DNA from: an uncultured Planctomycetaceae bacterium
GTDB taxonomy: Bacteria > Planctomycetota > Planctomycetia > Planctomycetales > Planctomycetaceae
Assembly (NCBI GenBank): GCA_903823545.1
Contig: CAIJTL010000412.1
Span: 1-11,839 of the forward strand
Direction: 5' to 3'
Length of the DNA stretch: 11,839 nt
Made by a program: the position numbers and the translations under genes. The notes beneath the pieces are model-generated. The model searched no databases, was not told the origin of the DNA, and was given only the letters and a program-made list of their open reading frames with translations. Below, one piece after another: positions 6,491 to 11,770 of the stretch; positions within the stretch are counted from its first letter, which is position 1; the number at the start of each line of letters is the position of its first letter.

Positions 6491-8710
6491 TCAATGATTG
6501 AATAAAAACTCGTTGGTCGCCAACAGCGACCATAACAGTGAGCGGCAGGCTTCTGGTCGGTCGGGTTCCGAGGTCAGGAAATCAACAGCGGCTTTCAGTT
6601 CTTCGGGGCGAGCTTGTCGGGCCAGGACTCGGAGGAACAAGGCGTTGGCGAGTTCGGTGTGTGACTTGTCGCTCGCAGCGAGTTGTTGAGCGTAGCCGGT
6701 CTTCTCGGTCAGCTTCCGTTGAATCTCGGCGGAGTTCACCAGCTCCAACGCTTGAGTCAGTGCTGGCGAATCGACTCGTTCGCATTCGCACGCGGACATC
6801 CGAGCGGGGCGACCGAAGACATCCAGGAAATGTGCGGCGACGTTTTCGTCGGGCAGGTCGATTGCTCGTGTGCCAGCAGCGACGCCGGGAAAATTGGTCG
6901 GCACTTCGAGCACTTGGCTGATCCCGTCGAGCAACACTTCGGCGGTCACTCGACGCGGATAGAACCGGGCGAACGTTTGCGTGTCGCCTGAGTTGCCGGG
7001 ATGCGGAGCTGATTCCAAACCGTAGGCGTAGCTGCTGGTGATGACTCGAATGAGATGCTTCACGTCGAAGCCACTGGCGATGAAGTCTTGAGCCAGCGCG
7101 TCGAGCAGTTCGGGATTACTCGGCGGATTCGTGCTGCGAGCGTCGTCGATCGGGTGAACGATGCCGCGTCCGAGGAAGTGAGCCCACATGCGATTGGCCA
7201 TCGTGCGAGCGAAGAACGGATTGTCGGCACTCGTCATCCAGCGCGCGAGACTGTTGCGAGGATCGTCATGCAGTCCGAGCGAGAACTCAGTCCCTCCAAG
7301 CGGTCGCGGCTTGAGAAGCTCGCCGGTGCGTGGGTGCAACACGTCGCCGCGATCCTTCAGAAAGATGATCTCATCGGTCGGAACTTCGGCATCCGCGAAA
7401 CCTCCCTTGCGACCAACTCGCGAGAAGACCGCCGCCAAGCCGAAGTAGTCCGACTGGCTCCAGCGTTCCGTCGGATGATGATGGCACTGAGCACACTGCA
7501 CACGGACGCCAAGAAACGCTTGCGAGACGGACTCAACATACTCAGGCGACTTCCGCACGGCGCGATACCAAATCGCGGGCGGGTTCTCGTTCTGGCTGCC
7601 GCTGGCCGTAATGATCTCGGACACAAATCGGTCATACGGCTTGTTCGCCGCGAGCGAATCACGAATCCACGCAGCGAAGAGCGTTGTCCCCGCCCGTTGC
7701 TTGCTCGTTGAATATCCGGCCCCGCGATTCTGCAGAATGTCGGCCCACTTCAGCGTGAAGTAACTCGCATACTCCGGTCGTTCCAACAGGCGGTCGATCA
7801 GCCGCGCTCGTTTGTCGCTGCGCGTGTCCGCGAGAAACTCTGTGACTTCTTCGTTCGTCGGCAGCGTGCCGCAGATGTCAATCGTTGCTCGACGCAGGAA
7901 CGTCGCATCATCGGCCGGCGAAGAGGGAACGACTCCCATTCGTCGCCATTGAGCGAGCAAATGGCGGTCGAACGACGATGCTCCCAGCTTCGGTTCCAAT
8001 TGATCGAGTTGTTTCTGTGCGGCGGCCATTTTGGTCGGATCGCTCGCGAATGGAACGGCGGCATGAAACGTCGCGATCTGTTCGCCGAATCGAGCCATCA
8101 CTGATACGAGCCCATGTTGCGAAGTCGTCGTAACCAACCCATCCGCCTCGACGTTCGCGATGTTCGGTTCGTTCGATTGATAGACCGCCTGACGAGTCAC
8201 CTCTCGCGATTTGCCGTCGGAAAAGAACGCCGTCACTCGCAGTTGTTGCGTCGCATTGGGTTTCAGAACTTGCTGATTCGGCGAAAGCTCGATGCGAATC
8301 AAACGAGGATCATTGGCCCGCGGCGCGGTCGCTCCCTGAGCGATCCATTCGCGGAGAATCTGGTAGTCGTCACTCGATTCATCCAACCGCCGTCCGCCGC
8401 CATGTGGGACTCTTGAAGTCGCCTTGAGCAACAGCAAGCTGTGGTCGGGTGCCGCATAATTCAACCGCCGCCCTTTGCTGTCGGTGACGAGTGCGTCGTA
8501 ATCCACTTCCGGCTCAAACCCGAACAACGAGAGCTTGAACCCATTCTGCCCCGTCGCCTTCCCGTGACATCCACCACTATCACAACCGAGCTTGGTCAGG
8601 ATTGGGACAACATCGGTGCCGAAGTGAACTTCGGCGGCAAGTGTTTGATTCAACGGGATCGCGCTGACTAACAGCAGTAGAAAACAAGCGATGTCTTTGA
8701 GGTTGGTCAT
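6491..8710 (-). CDS. Secreted cytochrome-like protein (PSCyt1-type, Ig-like, DUF1549, DUF1553)
   Basis: From the ATG at 8710 the product has 739 residues. Residues 1-26 (MTNLKDIACFLLLLVSAIPL, then NQTLAA) form a Sec signal peptide. Next is a cytochrome-like segment with C43-x4-C48-H49 (GCDSGGCHG), a haem-binding pattern usual for this subgroup. Residues about 139-219 look like a bacterial Ig-like (Big_2) domain (TAFFSDGKSREVTRQAVYQS). DUF1549 runs from about 246 and carries a second motif, C406-A-Q-C409-H410 (VQCAQCHHHPTERW). DUF1553 covers about 484-735 (FARTMANRMWAHFLGRGIVH). This architecture is typical of planctomycetes; the proteins are thought to be periplasmic redox proteins, with the reaction unknown. 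The frame stays open to an ATG at 8863, but that extension runs through an inverted repeat and lacks any signal-peptide sense, so it is rejected; an ATG at 8734 remains an alternative. The usual partner genes, PPC and DUF1501, lie nearby. Confidence 0.92.
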   Translation of the reverse strand: MTNLKDIACFLLLLVSAIPLNQTLAAEVHFGTDVVPILTKLGCDSGGCHGKATGQNGFKLSLFGFEPEVDYDALVTDSKGRRLNYAAPDHSLLLLKATSRVPHGGGRRLDESSDDYQILREWIAQGATAPRANDPRLIRIELSPNQQVLKPNATQQLRVTAFFSDGKSREVTRQAVYQSNEPNIANVEADGLVTTTSQHGLVSVMARFGEQIATFHAAVPFASDPTKMAAAQKQLDQLEPKLGASSFDRHLLAQWRRMGVVPSSPADDATFLRRATIDICGTLPTNEEVTEFLADTRSDKRARLIDRLLERPEYASYFTLKWADILQNRGAGYSTSKQRAGTTLFAAWIRDSLAANKPYDRFVSEIITASGSQNENPPAIWYRAVRKSPEYVESVSQAFLGVRVQCAQCHHHPTERWSQSDYFGLAAVFSRVGRKGGFADAEVPTDEIIFLKDRGDVLHPRTGELLKPRPLGGTEFSLGLHDDPRNSLARWMTSADNPFFARTMANRMWAHFLGRGIVHPIDDARSTNPPSNPELLDALAQDFIASGFDVKHLIRVITSSYAYGLESAPHPGNSGDTQTFARFYPRRVTAEVLLDGISQVLEVPTNFPGVAAGTRAIDLPDENVAAHFLDVFGRPARMSACECERVDSPALTQALELVNSAEIQRKLTEKTGYAQQLAASDKSHTELANALFLRVLARQARPEELKAAVDFLTSEPDRPEACRSLLWSLLATNEFLFNH

Positions 8711-8738
8711 CCGATATGTCTCGCCAAGTCGCATAAAT

Positions 8739-8905
8739 CCTGGAGTGCTGCGGCTCGACGCAGCCCTTGGATCAATTGCAATAACGATTCTCAAGGTTTC
8801 AAAAACGTCGCTACGAAGATCGACTGTCCCGATAGTCGTTTTCTCGATGATCGACGTCCTCATTCCAAATGATCACAGGGCTGCGTCGAACCGCAGCACT
8901 CCAGG
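8739..8905. repeat. Inverted pair of palindromic repeats (REP/BIME- or MITE-like)
   Basis: Two 29-bp arms at 8739-8767 and 8877-8905 are reverse complements at 28 of 29 positions; with three mismatches in all, the match extends to 36 bp (8739-8774 and 8870-8905). Each arm also has its own hairpin: GCTGCG, a 6-nt loop, then CGCAGC. The 95-bp centre shows no coding sense. The element fills most of the 203-bp gap between the PPC gene and the DUF1549/DUF1553 gene. In the transcript it could fold into one long stem or two small hairpins, either of which could affect termination, mRNA stability or processing between the two genes. No target-site duplication is evident (left flank TAAAT, right flank TTACG). 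It may be a REP-type doublet moved by a distant RAYT-like transposase, or a non-autonomous terminal-inverted-repeat element; the sequence alone does not decide. Confidence 0.85.
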
Positions 8906-8913
8906 TTACGTGG

Positions 8914-11451
8914 CTACTCAATAATCTCCAACGGAAATAATCCGCTGCCGAAATACTTTGGCTCGTCTTCGACGACACCGACGGTAAAGAGCCTCAAGAA
9001 ATTCTGTCGGCCCAACGGTGCATCATCGTTGATGACAATTTGAAGCGTTCCTTTGTCGGTCTGACCAGTGAAGGTTTCGCCTCGACCGCGTAGACCAACG
9101 ATATCCGTCACCCGCCCGGGAGCAGCCAGTTCGGTGTGCATCTTGCCGATGAAGCCGTTGATCCGCTTGGCGGAATAGCTCACTTTGATCGTCTCGCCCC
9201 GCTTCGCGCGAGTCACGGCAAACGGATCGACTTCAACCAGAAACGCCGCCGGTTGCACATCAATGGTGATGGGGTTGCTGATGACCGTCACTGTTTCAGT
9301 TTTCTTATCAGTGGTCGCGATCGTGGTTTCCGCACGAACGGCGAACGAGTAGCGACCGACCGGCAATGTCTGAGGTAAATAGAAACTGAGATATCCCTTT
9401 TTCTCCCCAGCCGCGATAACCGCCGTTTGATTTGGAATTGCTTCAAGCAACCCAACGCCGATCAGTTTGACGGCCGCTTGATGACCCGTGTCGCGACGTT
9501 CGATGTGAATGGCGACATCGACCACACCGCCCGGTGAATGCTTCGCGGCGAGCTTGCCGTAAAGATGGTGCTCGATCACTTCGTGAGCATCCGCCGTAAT
9601 TCGCAGCGGTGATTCGCCCACCACTGCAAACGGAATCTGCGACGTGATCCGCCCCCAGCCGTTCGGCGTTCCCGGACGAACGATCGTGCCGCCACGCACC
9701 ATGCGACTAACGTAGCTTGGCACTCCAGAGCCGAGAGGCTCGACTCTCCGAGTCGAGCTACCGACAAGTTTCATCTCGCCAAATTGAGCCTCTCCATTTT
9801 GGTCAGCCGAAACAACGACGACCGCTCGATCGACTCCCGGACCAAGCCACACATCGGGACATTCCAAACCAGCGGGCAAATCCTTCGCTGAAACACGGAT
9901 TGCTCCATCGAAACCGCGTCGCCGAAACGCCAGCAAATCAAACGCTTCTCGGCCACCACGTCGCACATTCAACGCGGCCAAATCATCGCGATGCGGAACT
10001 GCGACCAGATGAAAGTCAGGCTCTTCGCGCCGCAAACTCAGTCGGTAAATCCGACGCGGATCAGGTTGCGAGCCGCCAATCAGATTTTGGATGACTACCA
10101 AATAGCGACCATCCAGCGGACAGACCCAGCGTCCCGATGGATCGAGGTGATTCGTTGGAAATGTGCCACCAATGTTTTGGACTTCATCTCCAAATTGAGC
10201 CAACTCGTTCTGCCCCGCTGAATCCAACACGCTGATCTGCAAATCAACCGGCGATTGAATGCGTTGTCCAAATCCTTCGACGAAGAAGACTTCGCCCCGT
10301 CGCGCATCAATCGCAAACCAGTCTCGTTCGTCTCGCTCAACAAGCTGTCCGCTCACTTCGCACGGTATTGCCAACTTTTGTGCCGATGACGGCGAGTGGT
10401 TGTCAGCACCATCCAACACGACAGGCACATCGGCCACACCGATCACAACCGGCGCGTGACTGCCTGGGAACTGATATGGAAACGATGCCGCTTCAATTAC
10501 TGCTTGAGCTGGCTGCAAGCGAGTTCGCAACGGCCATGCTGGTTCCGTGAGCAACGTCGGGATGTCAATGTCGAGACGATCGAAGACATCGAGTAACTGG
10601 GAGGGCGAGGCTCCCGCCGAGCCGGGCGTATCTACGACTCGCGGCTCGGTGGGAGCCTCGCCCTTCCGCAGGTTCCAACCAAGTAGAGTGACGCGCGATG
10701 CTTTGCCACGTTCAATCAGACTCGGAACCGTAAACGCGACACGCGGGCCTGAATCGATATCAAGCCGGTAGTAATGCTCGGCGTTGCCCGACGATGTGAG
10801 GTCTTGAATCTTCACAACATACGAGCCGTCGGTCGGCACGCGGAAGTCGATCAACGGGTCGATCCCGAAGTAACCTCGATTGACCGCCAGCCGCTTTCCA
10901 GCAGCATCGAAGAGTTCAATCACCGCACGCAACCGCGAATCAATCCGCTCTGCTGAGCACTCGATGACCACTCGCTGGCCCTGCTTGGAATCGAAGCGAA
11001 AATGATCGACATCACCTGCTTTGTCGATTCGTCCGTTGATCACAACGTTCAGCGGTACTGACATCGGCGCTGCTGTTGTCTCTTTAGGCTCGACCTCTGA
11101 TTGTTCGAGGCGATTGCTGATCACAAACGTCCGAGGCGAACTCACCCCGTTATCACCAACCGCCCACAAGTCACACATTCCAATGGGAGCGTCTGCCGGG
11201 ACACTCAACCGAAACCGATTTTGATCGAGCCGCTCACAACGAATGCCTGAAACGTTGCAATGGAGCGTTCGAATTCCTTGCAGATTGCCGCCACCCACCG
11301 TCACTTCGACCGTCTGGCCAACCTGAGCACCCATCGGGAAAACCGTGCTGAGTACCGGAGGTGCTTGTCCAAAGACCGTGTGGTCGGCAAACATCGCCAA
11401 CCAAACGGCGACAATTACGAGCAGATCACGGCATCGGCTGCGGACAATCAT
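8914..11451 (-). CDS. Large secreted PPC-domain / Ig-like protein with in-frame palindromic insertion
   Basis: The ATG at 11451 gives 845 residues. GGGAG at 11462-11458 lies 6 nt upstream, favouring this start over two TTG codons just before it. Residues 1-28 form a signal peptide (LLVIVAVWLAMF core). An IPT/TIG-like segment follows (VLSTVFPMGAQVGQTVEVTV, about 33-110), then a PPC-type domain at about 125-232 (DVDHFRFDSKQGQRVVIECS) and another at about 350-475 (RDWFAIDARRGEVFFVEGFG), then several beta-rich segments to the end. No catalytic motif is seen; the domains suggest an exported, surface or periplasmic binding or structural protein. In planctomycetes such proteins are commonly encoded beside DUF1549/DUF1553 and DUF1501 genes, as here. 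Residues 262-285 are encoded by a 69-bp palindrome, and residues near 565-571 by a second palindrome, both without breaking the frame. It is the first gene after the upstream terminator, 203 bp before the cytochrome-like gene. Confidence 0.92.
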   Translation of the reverse strand: MIVRSRCRDLLVIVAVWLAMFADHTVFGQAPPVLSTVFPMGAQVGQTVEVTVGGGNLQGIRTLHCNVSGIRCERLDQNRFRLSVPADAPIGMCDLWAVGDNGVSSPRTFVISNRLEQSEVEPKETTAAPMSVPLNVVINGRIDKAGDVDHFRFDSKQGQRVVIECSAERIDSRLRAVIELFDAAGKRLAVNRGYFGIDPLIDFRVPTDGSYVVKIQDLTSSGNAEHYYRLDIDSGPRVAFTVPSLIERGKASRVTLLGWNLRKGEAPTEPRVVDTPGSAGASPSQLLDVFDRLDIDIPTLLTEPAWPLRTRLQPAQAVIEAASFPYQFPGSHAPVVIGVADVPVVLDGADNHSPSSAQKLAIPCEVSGQLVERDERDWFAIDARRGEVFFVEGFGQRIQSPVDLQISVLDSAGQNELAQFGDEVQNIGGTFPTNHLDPSGRWVCPLDGRYLVVIQNLIGGSQPDPRRIYRLSLRREEPDFHLVAVPHRDDLAALNVRRGGREAFDLLAFRRRGFDGAIRVSAKDLPAGLECPDVWLGPGVDRAVVVVSADQNGEAQFGEMKLVGSSTRRVEPLGSGVPSYVSRMVRGGTIVRPGTPNGWGRITSQIPFAVVGESPLRITADAHEVIEHHLYGKLAAKHSPGGVVDVAIHIERRDTGHQAAVKLIGVGLLEAIPNQTAVIAAGEKKGYLSFYLPQTLPVGRYSFAVRAETTIATTDKKTETVTVISNPITIDVQPAAFLVEVDPFAVTRAKRGETIKVSYSAKRINGFIGKMHTELAAPGRVTDIVGLRGRGETFTGQTDKGTLQIVINDDAPLGRQNFLRLFTVGVVEDEPKYFGSGLFPLEIIE
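9738..9758. repeat. 21-bp perfect palindrome inside the PPC gene
   Basis: GCTCGACTC, a 3-nt loop TCC, then GAGTCGAGC form a perfect 9-bp stem. It overlaps a second, imperfect palindrome at about 9727-9747 (AGAGCCGAG paired with CTCGACTCT, one mismatch). In the coding frame it gives SSTRRVEPL, starting at residue 565, within a stretch (GSSTRRVEPLGSGVP) that reads like an inserted linker between KLV and YVSRM. A repeat of this kind could have been inserted in frame, but only one copy is visible here. Confidence 0.6.
10599..10667. repeat. 69-bp palindromic element inserted in frame in the PPC gene
   Basis: Arms at 10599-10624 and 10642-10667 are reverse complements at 24 of 26 positions, with a 17-nt loop. 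Each arm also holds a small hairpin of its own (GGGAG, 7-nt loop, CTCCC). The length is 69 bp, exactly 23 codons, so the host frame is kept; on the minus strand it encodes KGEAPTEPRVVDTPGSAGAS and flanking residues, about 262-285. The peptide is low in hydrophobics and falls just after a beta-rich segment (VTLLGWNLR), a likely surface loop. Similar GEAPxEP...GSAGASPS peptides recur in planctomycete proteins as far as I recall, which fits a mobile or spreading palindromic repeat. Confidence 0.85.
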
Positions 11452-11770
11452 CAACAACTCCCAACGAGCATGGCGTTGAATACGCTCATCAGGCCGAGCC
11501 GCCTGACTGAACTATTCAACCGCCGCTTGGGAATATATCGGTCTTTGTTGATGCACCGATAGTTCTGAGTCGCAATCCCGCAAATAGTCTGTCGACTCGT
11601 CAGCGGGTTATGCGAATTGCTCCGGCGGCGATGCGACTTGAACTCCGCTCTATTCGCTAATGAGTCAACGAGTGGATAAACGAAAAACTAATTTCGGTAA
11701 GCACCCCTGAACTCGATTGACCACGAAGCCTTTGATGGTCTAAGAACATGCCAAGTCCCCAAATAGGATC
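11452..11770. other. Gene-free leader of the PPC gene
   Basis: No gene is supported in these 319 bp. The region should hold the promoter of the leftward gene run, since it lies between a terminator and the first start codon, but no convincing -35/-10 pair was found. On the minus strand a TATATT hexamer at 11537-11532 is a possible -10 without a good -35. It touches a 7-bp stem (TATCGGT at 11536-11542 and ACCGATA at 11555-11561, 12-nt loop). A smaller stem, CAGGC/GCCTG, lies at 11490-11505. Either could be an operator or a leader hairpin; neither is proven. Confidence 0.5.
11458..11462 (-). promoter_or_regulatory. Ribosome-binding site that fixes the PPC-protein start
   Basis: GGGAG on the minus strand is 6 nt upstream of the ATG at 11451. 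The open frame could also begin at TTG codons at 11457 or 11454, but those would lie only 0-3 nt from this site, too near for normal initiation. Confidence 0.7.

Follow-up and report, generated by a model that had tools for sequence, protein, structure and literature searches.

A dispersed palindromic element read in frame within protein loops of Planctomycetaceae

A 69-bp palindrome lying in frame within a gene of an uncultured Planctomycetaceae bacterium belongs to a dispersed family, here called family A, whose members recur across the host genome and those of its relatives, are often read in frame as part of unrelated proteins, and appear to share a protein loop with unrelated palindromes found in sister species. 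Taken as a whole, these observations are very probably best explained by a non-autonomous mobile hairpin element that is tolerated in loose loops of proteins. The stretch of DNA analysed, 11,839 nucleotides long and referred to below as the window, contains the following features:

8914..11457, minus strand: host gene, encoding an 847-aa protein modelled as largely beta strands, with a weak PPC match and a probable signal peptide
10599..10667, minus strand: family A palindrome of 69 bp (two 26-bp arms around a 17-nt loop), read in frame
10599..10624, plus strand: arm one, 26 bp, GGGAGGGCGAGGCTCCCGCCGAGCCG, with an internal GGCTC/GAGCC hairpin
10642..10667, plus strand: arm two, 26 bp, complementary to arm one at 24 of 26 positions
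9737..9761, plus strand: tentative, low-copy family F palindrome with a GTAG end, in the second low-confidence loop of the window protein

Direct comparison of the 26-bp arms confirmed the architecture that an earlier note had described from the letters alone, with 24 of 26 positions complementary around a 17-nt loop. Its further claim that each arm is itself hairpin-forming agrees with the short hairpin GGCTC-ccgcc-GAGCC seen by eye in both arms, one of which has an altered loop base. The repeat search also recovered this inverted repeat, delimiting it as arms of 31 nt with 87% complementarity and a 7-nt gap. Folded as single-stranded DNA, positions 10590-10680 reach -38 kcal/mol versus -18.7 +/- 2.3 for shuffled sequences (z -8.4), none of 200 shuffles being equally stable. 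The family A consensus (GGGAGGG...CCCTCCC) is covered end to end by the 69 bp, so that the boundaries 10599-10667 fit. Elsewhere in the window, 49-nt arms at 8739-8787 and 8857-8905 (86% complementary, 69-nt gap) form an inverted repeat that looks like another palindromic element; it overlaps the point at which the ORF 6491-8863 is called to begin, and translation of this gene may really begin downstream of the repeat.

In the minus-strand ORF 8914-11457 the palindrome is read, with no stop, as GEAPTEPRVVDTPGSAGASPS, which is the in-frame reading originally proposed. The residue numbers given with that proposal (262-285) hold if translation begins at an ATG two codons downstream of the TTG at 11457, but not if it begins at the TTG itself, from which a hand count gives 264-287. 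The designation of the host as a PPC protein is likewise weak, the match to Pfam PF04151 reaching 19 bits against a cut-off of 25.9. An N-terminal hydrophobic stretch, recognised by eye, makes it probable that the protein is secreted. An AlphaFold2 model based on the window protein and 29 orthologues (mean pLDDT 82) is confident on both sides of the insert, which follows a beta strand ending at residue 261. The pLDDT falls below 50 at 266-289, approximately the insert, and at 572-579 in a second loop. The model thus depicts the insert as a probably disordered, low-confidence, loose loop, with the reservation that the low pLDDT may partly reflect the few aligned sequences that cover it. The second loop carries the palindrome at 9737-9761 (inverted-repeat score 9, shuffle maximum 8), whose family F has one match in its own genome and 13 matches (3 mismatches) in six congeners, with none for the control.

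Seventeen places, one of them the window, were found at E<=0.01 when the 7.2-Mb host genome was searched with the 69 bp; the 39 match rows obtained when weak ones are counted are in many cases the two strands of one place. At twelve of the 17 places the arm is read as GEAPAEP or a close variant within an open frame longer than 150 aa, while four are without an open frame of that size reading the arm and one is read differently. With up to two mismatches allowed, the arm has 24 matches in the host, 22 in genome G001, 29 in G007 and 126 in the one-contig genome G074, against none in any of the four for its reversed control pattern. A covariance model (R1) has matches in 12 of the 12 genomes of the genus, host included, with 2 to 148 matches per genome (counting both strands and scoring up to 150 candidates in each). 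When 150 genomes sampled from the taxonomic family, among them the host and its congeners, were searched with the 69-bp consensus, 70 had matches, representing 29 of the 58 genera in this sample. These copies in the host and its relatives support, together with the orthologues described below, the earlier view of the palindrome as a presumably selfish repeat that spreads into tolerated loops and thereby creates linkers. Simple repeats do occur in variable loops (SNLKS stretches at the L126 site, GGAGT-like ones in L342), as they might if the palindrome were a local product of template switching in a repeat-prone loop rather than a member of a mobile family; this explanation is exceedingly improbable, and for family A is refuted by the presence of the same arm at many unrelated loci across the sampled genomes.

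Two local arrangements of copies were noted. By eye, 14 of the 22 listed loop-28 family A copies of G006 are centred in a larger repeat (e.g. L136, L138, L148 and L149) with ends like ATCCGGATTCCAA / TTGGAATCCGGAT, a nested repeat that is expanded in this genome; such copies may have spread together with the larger repeat, and the copy number of G006 overstates family A's own spread because part of it lies inside that repeat. In G143 (C189:46-367), three family A matches stand in tandem with a spacing of 121 bp.

The genic context of the family was assessed on 124 distinct copies flanked on each side by 260 nt or more (locus L122 being entered twice), with coding flanks scored by a codon model trained on the longest ORFs. 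Fifty-three copies lie between coding flanks in the same frame and six between same-strand coding flanks out of frame; the others lie between opposite-strand flanks (3) or have one coding flank (29) or none (33). These fractions are not genome-wide rates, as the copies are best-scoring hits and G004 and G006 together contribute at least 52 of the 124. The window's own copy, with only one flank above the coding threshold, is not among the 53, which do include its orthologous copies L070 and L073. No stop occurs within 80 codons in 48 of the 53, and removal of the L122 duplicate and merging of related host genes left 34 genes with one representative each (merged clusters include members read otherwise, namely L179 with L125, and L145 and L165 with L066). 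The first arm is read as EGEAPAEP in 31 representatives, GRARLPPSR in two and GGRGSRRA in one, a bias in phase with p = 3e-12 against an expectation of one third, and the second arm as GSAGASPS in 25, ARREPRPP in eight and LGGSLALP in one. Inserts in genes measure 65-99 bp; their length is divisible by three in 24 of the 34 representatives, and in the other ten the flanking bases must have changed too. The host ORFs are considered real since 17 of 20 selected ones contain Pfam domains, in some cases with a domain match spanning the insert (kinase in L122, AcrB-type in L125, asparagine synthase in L166 and DUF7779 in L173).

Could the bias in phase and site come from the inserting enzyme's own preference for certain targets, and not from selection acting on the protein? 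The element has a weak TYRA target, with which codon position could correlate. Nonetheless, this seems unlikely: the 53 copies in frame versus six out of frame, and the compensation of insert lengths that are not multiples of three, point to selection on the reading frame (p = 2e-11 even when the 34 merged in-frame genes are set against the six unmerged out-of-frame copies). Selection, more than the choice of target, would probably set the phase among surviving inserts.

Thirty orthologues of the window protein were aligned, 11 forming a close clade that includes the window and 19 an outgroup. At the loop holding the insert (loop 1), a strong palindrome is present in eight of the 11 close-clade rows and in none of the 19 outgroup rows, nor do any of these 19 distant orthologues carry the GEAPAEP or GSAGASPS residues; the segment that the earlier note had placed at residues 262-285 is in this sense absent from the outgroup. 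Family A occupies loop 1 in the window, L345 and L346, whereas L347, L348 and L373 carry a palindrome of family B, L351 one of the B-like family C, L352 one of the GTAG-ended family D, and L353 none; in L349 and L350 a one-sided stretch, TPPRSPN, resembles half of B. In the tree, the A-bearing L346 groups with the B-bearing L347 and L348 and the empty L353 with a support of 100/100, the window's own placement being weak (83/49). On that tree the content of loop 1 requires at least six changes with the halves scored as B (seven with an empty root), or at least five (six with an empty root) if C is also scored as B. Loop 2 has strong palindromes in four of the 11 close-clade rows (family G in L347, L349 and L351, family H in L373) and in none of the 19 outgroup rows, the window's own being marginal. 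To judge from these alignments, a single orthologous loop holds the unrelated palindromic families A, B/C and D in sister species. G005 and G009 were rejected as a close pair: their PPC loci (L037, G005:C25; L038, G009:C18) are identical over 5505 bp though the genomes are assigned to different species, which is probably due to cross-contamination of genome bins, and the two were counted as one copy. G005 also has a second PPC orthologue.

Similar turnover was seen at other sites. Twelve pairs of flanks, with the element removed, were searched in 12 genomes, and seven of the 12 sites were informative; at L122, L173, L178, L188 and L086, the joined-flank search gave no or too few readable orthologues. 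At the L174 site, family A is present in one genome, palindromes of the GGGCACGTTTCCAACC or GGGACAGGCTTCTAGCC type in three, AGCACGACGCGCCAGCGAGTGG in one and a weaker palindrome in one, with none in four; at the L162 site, three genomes have A, three a palindrome of the GTTTCCAAC type and three none. Family A occurs in two genomes at the L125 site, which is short in four loci (two of them, in G005 and G009, may be one sequence), and in six at the L146 site, where two genomes are without a clear palindrome. It is found in two genomes at the L153 site and one at the L166 site, with weaker or other repeats or none elsewhere, and in one at the L126 site, with simple repeats or none elsewhere. Palindromes thus appear, on sequence comparison, to be reused at no fewer than two host sites besides the loop of the window. 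The joined-flank search did return empty orthologues, with hypervariable junctions and hence no exact empty site for A, and direct comparison of loci yielded distant pairs only; the loops are too variable for a precise empty site, and the cleanest case, L125, differs by a few extra codons.

The other palindromes at these sites are themselves dispersed. Families B and C were found at 18 places among the loci examined (five of them the PPC loop of the window protein), 13 of the 18 contexts being in frame, and palindromes of the GTGGGGCAGGTTTCCAACC and AGCACGACG types at 22 and 14 places, some of them orthologous. A further repeat type was noted in L310, L311 and L313, orthologues of L126, whose loop contains AAATCTCAAATT-like repeats translated as ISNLKSQISNSKSEIS.

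A strong fold and arms that are well conserved among copies would also be expected of a hairpin that selection preserves for the function of its RNA or DNA structure, be it in pausing, as a terminator or in mRNA stability. The alignment of 13 family A copies speaks against this: 91.7% of cells are paired, but no pair has changed on both sides and equal or better pairing is reached by 479 of 500 shuffles. Pairing thus looks inherited and then decays, and these copies show no covariation as a sign of function. Orthologues, moreover, have no palindrome or unrelated ones, and positions 8600-11000 of the window gave no Rfam match at the gathering score. A functional structure is therefore a very improbable explanation.

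How family A is moved was approached through its flanks and through its association with candidate transposases. Among 110 copies with at most three mismatches, the base at -1 is Y in 92 and that at +1 is R in 89, with T at -2 (49/110) and A at +2 (41/110) both favoured, giving the weak TYRA target. Comparison of the flanks outside the element ends revealed no clear excess of target duplication in these copies: matches of one and two bases number 22 (16.8 expected) and nine (5.8), those of three and four bases two each (2.3 and 0.8), and those of five to nine bases zero, so that with matches of three bases or more near chance no target duplication is evident.

Foremost among the alternatives suggested by these features is an ordinary REPIN: family A would depend for its movement on a RAYT (Y1 transposase) from the same cell, and its presence in genes would be incidental. 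Like REPINs, it has two inverted hairpin-forming units with conserved arms and a variable loop, occurs also as single arms and leaves no target duplication, and the genus is rich in Y1_Tnp genes (11 of its 12 genomes gave 91 hits), some of them flanked by GTAG hairpins or long inverted repeats. One such gene, in L255 (G006:C21:11000-15100), has GTAG-tagged palindromes of family D on both sides and is likely the RAYT for that family; family D is also found in frame in the PPC orthologue L044. The ends of family A, however, read YGGGAGGG and carry neither a GTAG nor a CGTC tag. Within flanks of up to about 2 kb, no A arm lies close by any of the 71 genus Y1 loci examined out of 91; two of them, in copy-rich genomes, have A arms at about 1.0 and 1.2 kb. 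In ten family genomes that carry A there are 65 Y1 hits, and none of the 30 loci inspected among them has A arms. Finally, no Y1 match was found in G143 and G164, which belong to one genus, are 99% and 95% complete and are rich in A (95 and 126 R1 matches on both strands), nor in G011 (27 R1 matches), such absences from draft genomes not being proof. We consequently regard the REPIN explanation as somewhat unlikely. A parent insertion sequence with A's terminal repeats was not seen either, the systematic look being confined to Y1 loci.

The mobile-element explanation that we favour would run as follows. Family A, with 52 bp of arms and a variable loop, would be copied by a putative enzyme into YR (weakly TYRA) sites without target duplication, and may still be mobile, though no copy was caught in the act of moving among the genomes compared. 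Most insertions in genes would be lost; the survivors would lie in loose loops and be of a length and phase compatible with an uninterrupted reading frame, mostly the phase that encodes a mild linker (EGEAPAEPR...GSAGASPS) rather than arginine-rich peptides. The arms would drift independently after insertion, and loops tolerant of one insert would accept others, leading to successive colonisation by unrelated palindromic families and partial emptying by deletion. A stronger version, in which loose loops are shared landing sites for unrelated palindromes with arms encoding harmless linkers, which replace one another between sister species and steadily supply protein segments, with an enzyme for A that is not of the Y1/RAYT type, is plausible yet falls short of probable.

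The nearest known kinds of element are the palindromic elements of Rickettsia and intragenic REPs. In-frame palindromic elements are best known from Rickettsia, intracellular bacteria with reduced genomes, where their tolerance could be ascribed to weak selection. With planctomycete genomes of 5-9 Mb, many copies and turnover at the same loop, the supply of linkers by mobile DNA, and its limits, become testable. Some variable segments of planctomycete proteins are dispersed repeats rather than functional domains, which calls for caution in annotation. Family A or in-frame palindromes of planctomycetes were not found described among the best-ranked open PMC papers, a weak negative.

The parallel with Rickettsia drawn by the earlier note holds in behaviour. 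Rickettsia palindromic elements are described, in the available parts of PMC10969869 and PMC3733652, as dispersed palindromes inserted in frame in unrelated genes, with several families per genome, and family A likewise lies in frame in unrelated genes (34 host genes). It differs in belonging to another phylum, in its shorter inserts (65-99 bp versus about 150 bp in the available part of PMC10969869), and in that sister species carry unrelated families at a shared orthologous site. Intragenic REPs of the GTAG and CGTC superfamilies often occur as dimers or groups encoding 20-30 residues; the recB genes of two Xanthomonas species carry different REPs at about the same site, which sets a precedent for site reuse, and in R. 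baltica several families of REPs coexist with numerous genes for tyrosine transposases (available part of PMC3733652). Family A differs from them in having no GTAG or CGTC end and no RAYT found beside it, and in a strong bias for one phase that the same part of PMC3733652 does not report. REPINs, as characterised in the accessible portion of PMC3116915, consist of two inverted units forming a hairpin with a spacer and are extragenic and RAYT-associated; family A shares the two inverted hairpin-forming units and spacer, but the tags are missing and no A-flanked Y1 gene turned up at the loci inspected. In our non-random sample, 53 of 124 copies lie in frame between coding flanks. Compared with MITEs and RU elements, of which the intragenic enterobacterial ones are the topic of PMC2759123 to judge by its available part, family A similarly has terminal inverted repeats and no gene of its own, but differs in having no target duplication seen and no parent insertion sequence found at the Y1 loci. 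What seems new, next to these systems and within the reach of the literature searched, is an in-gene element without a GTAG tag or an evident RAYT, together with its phylum and scale, its bias in phase and the turnover of unrelated families at one loop.
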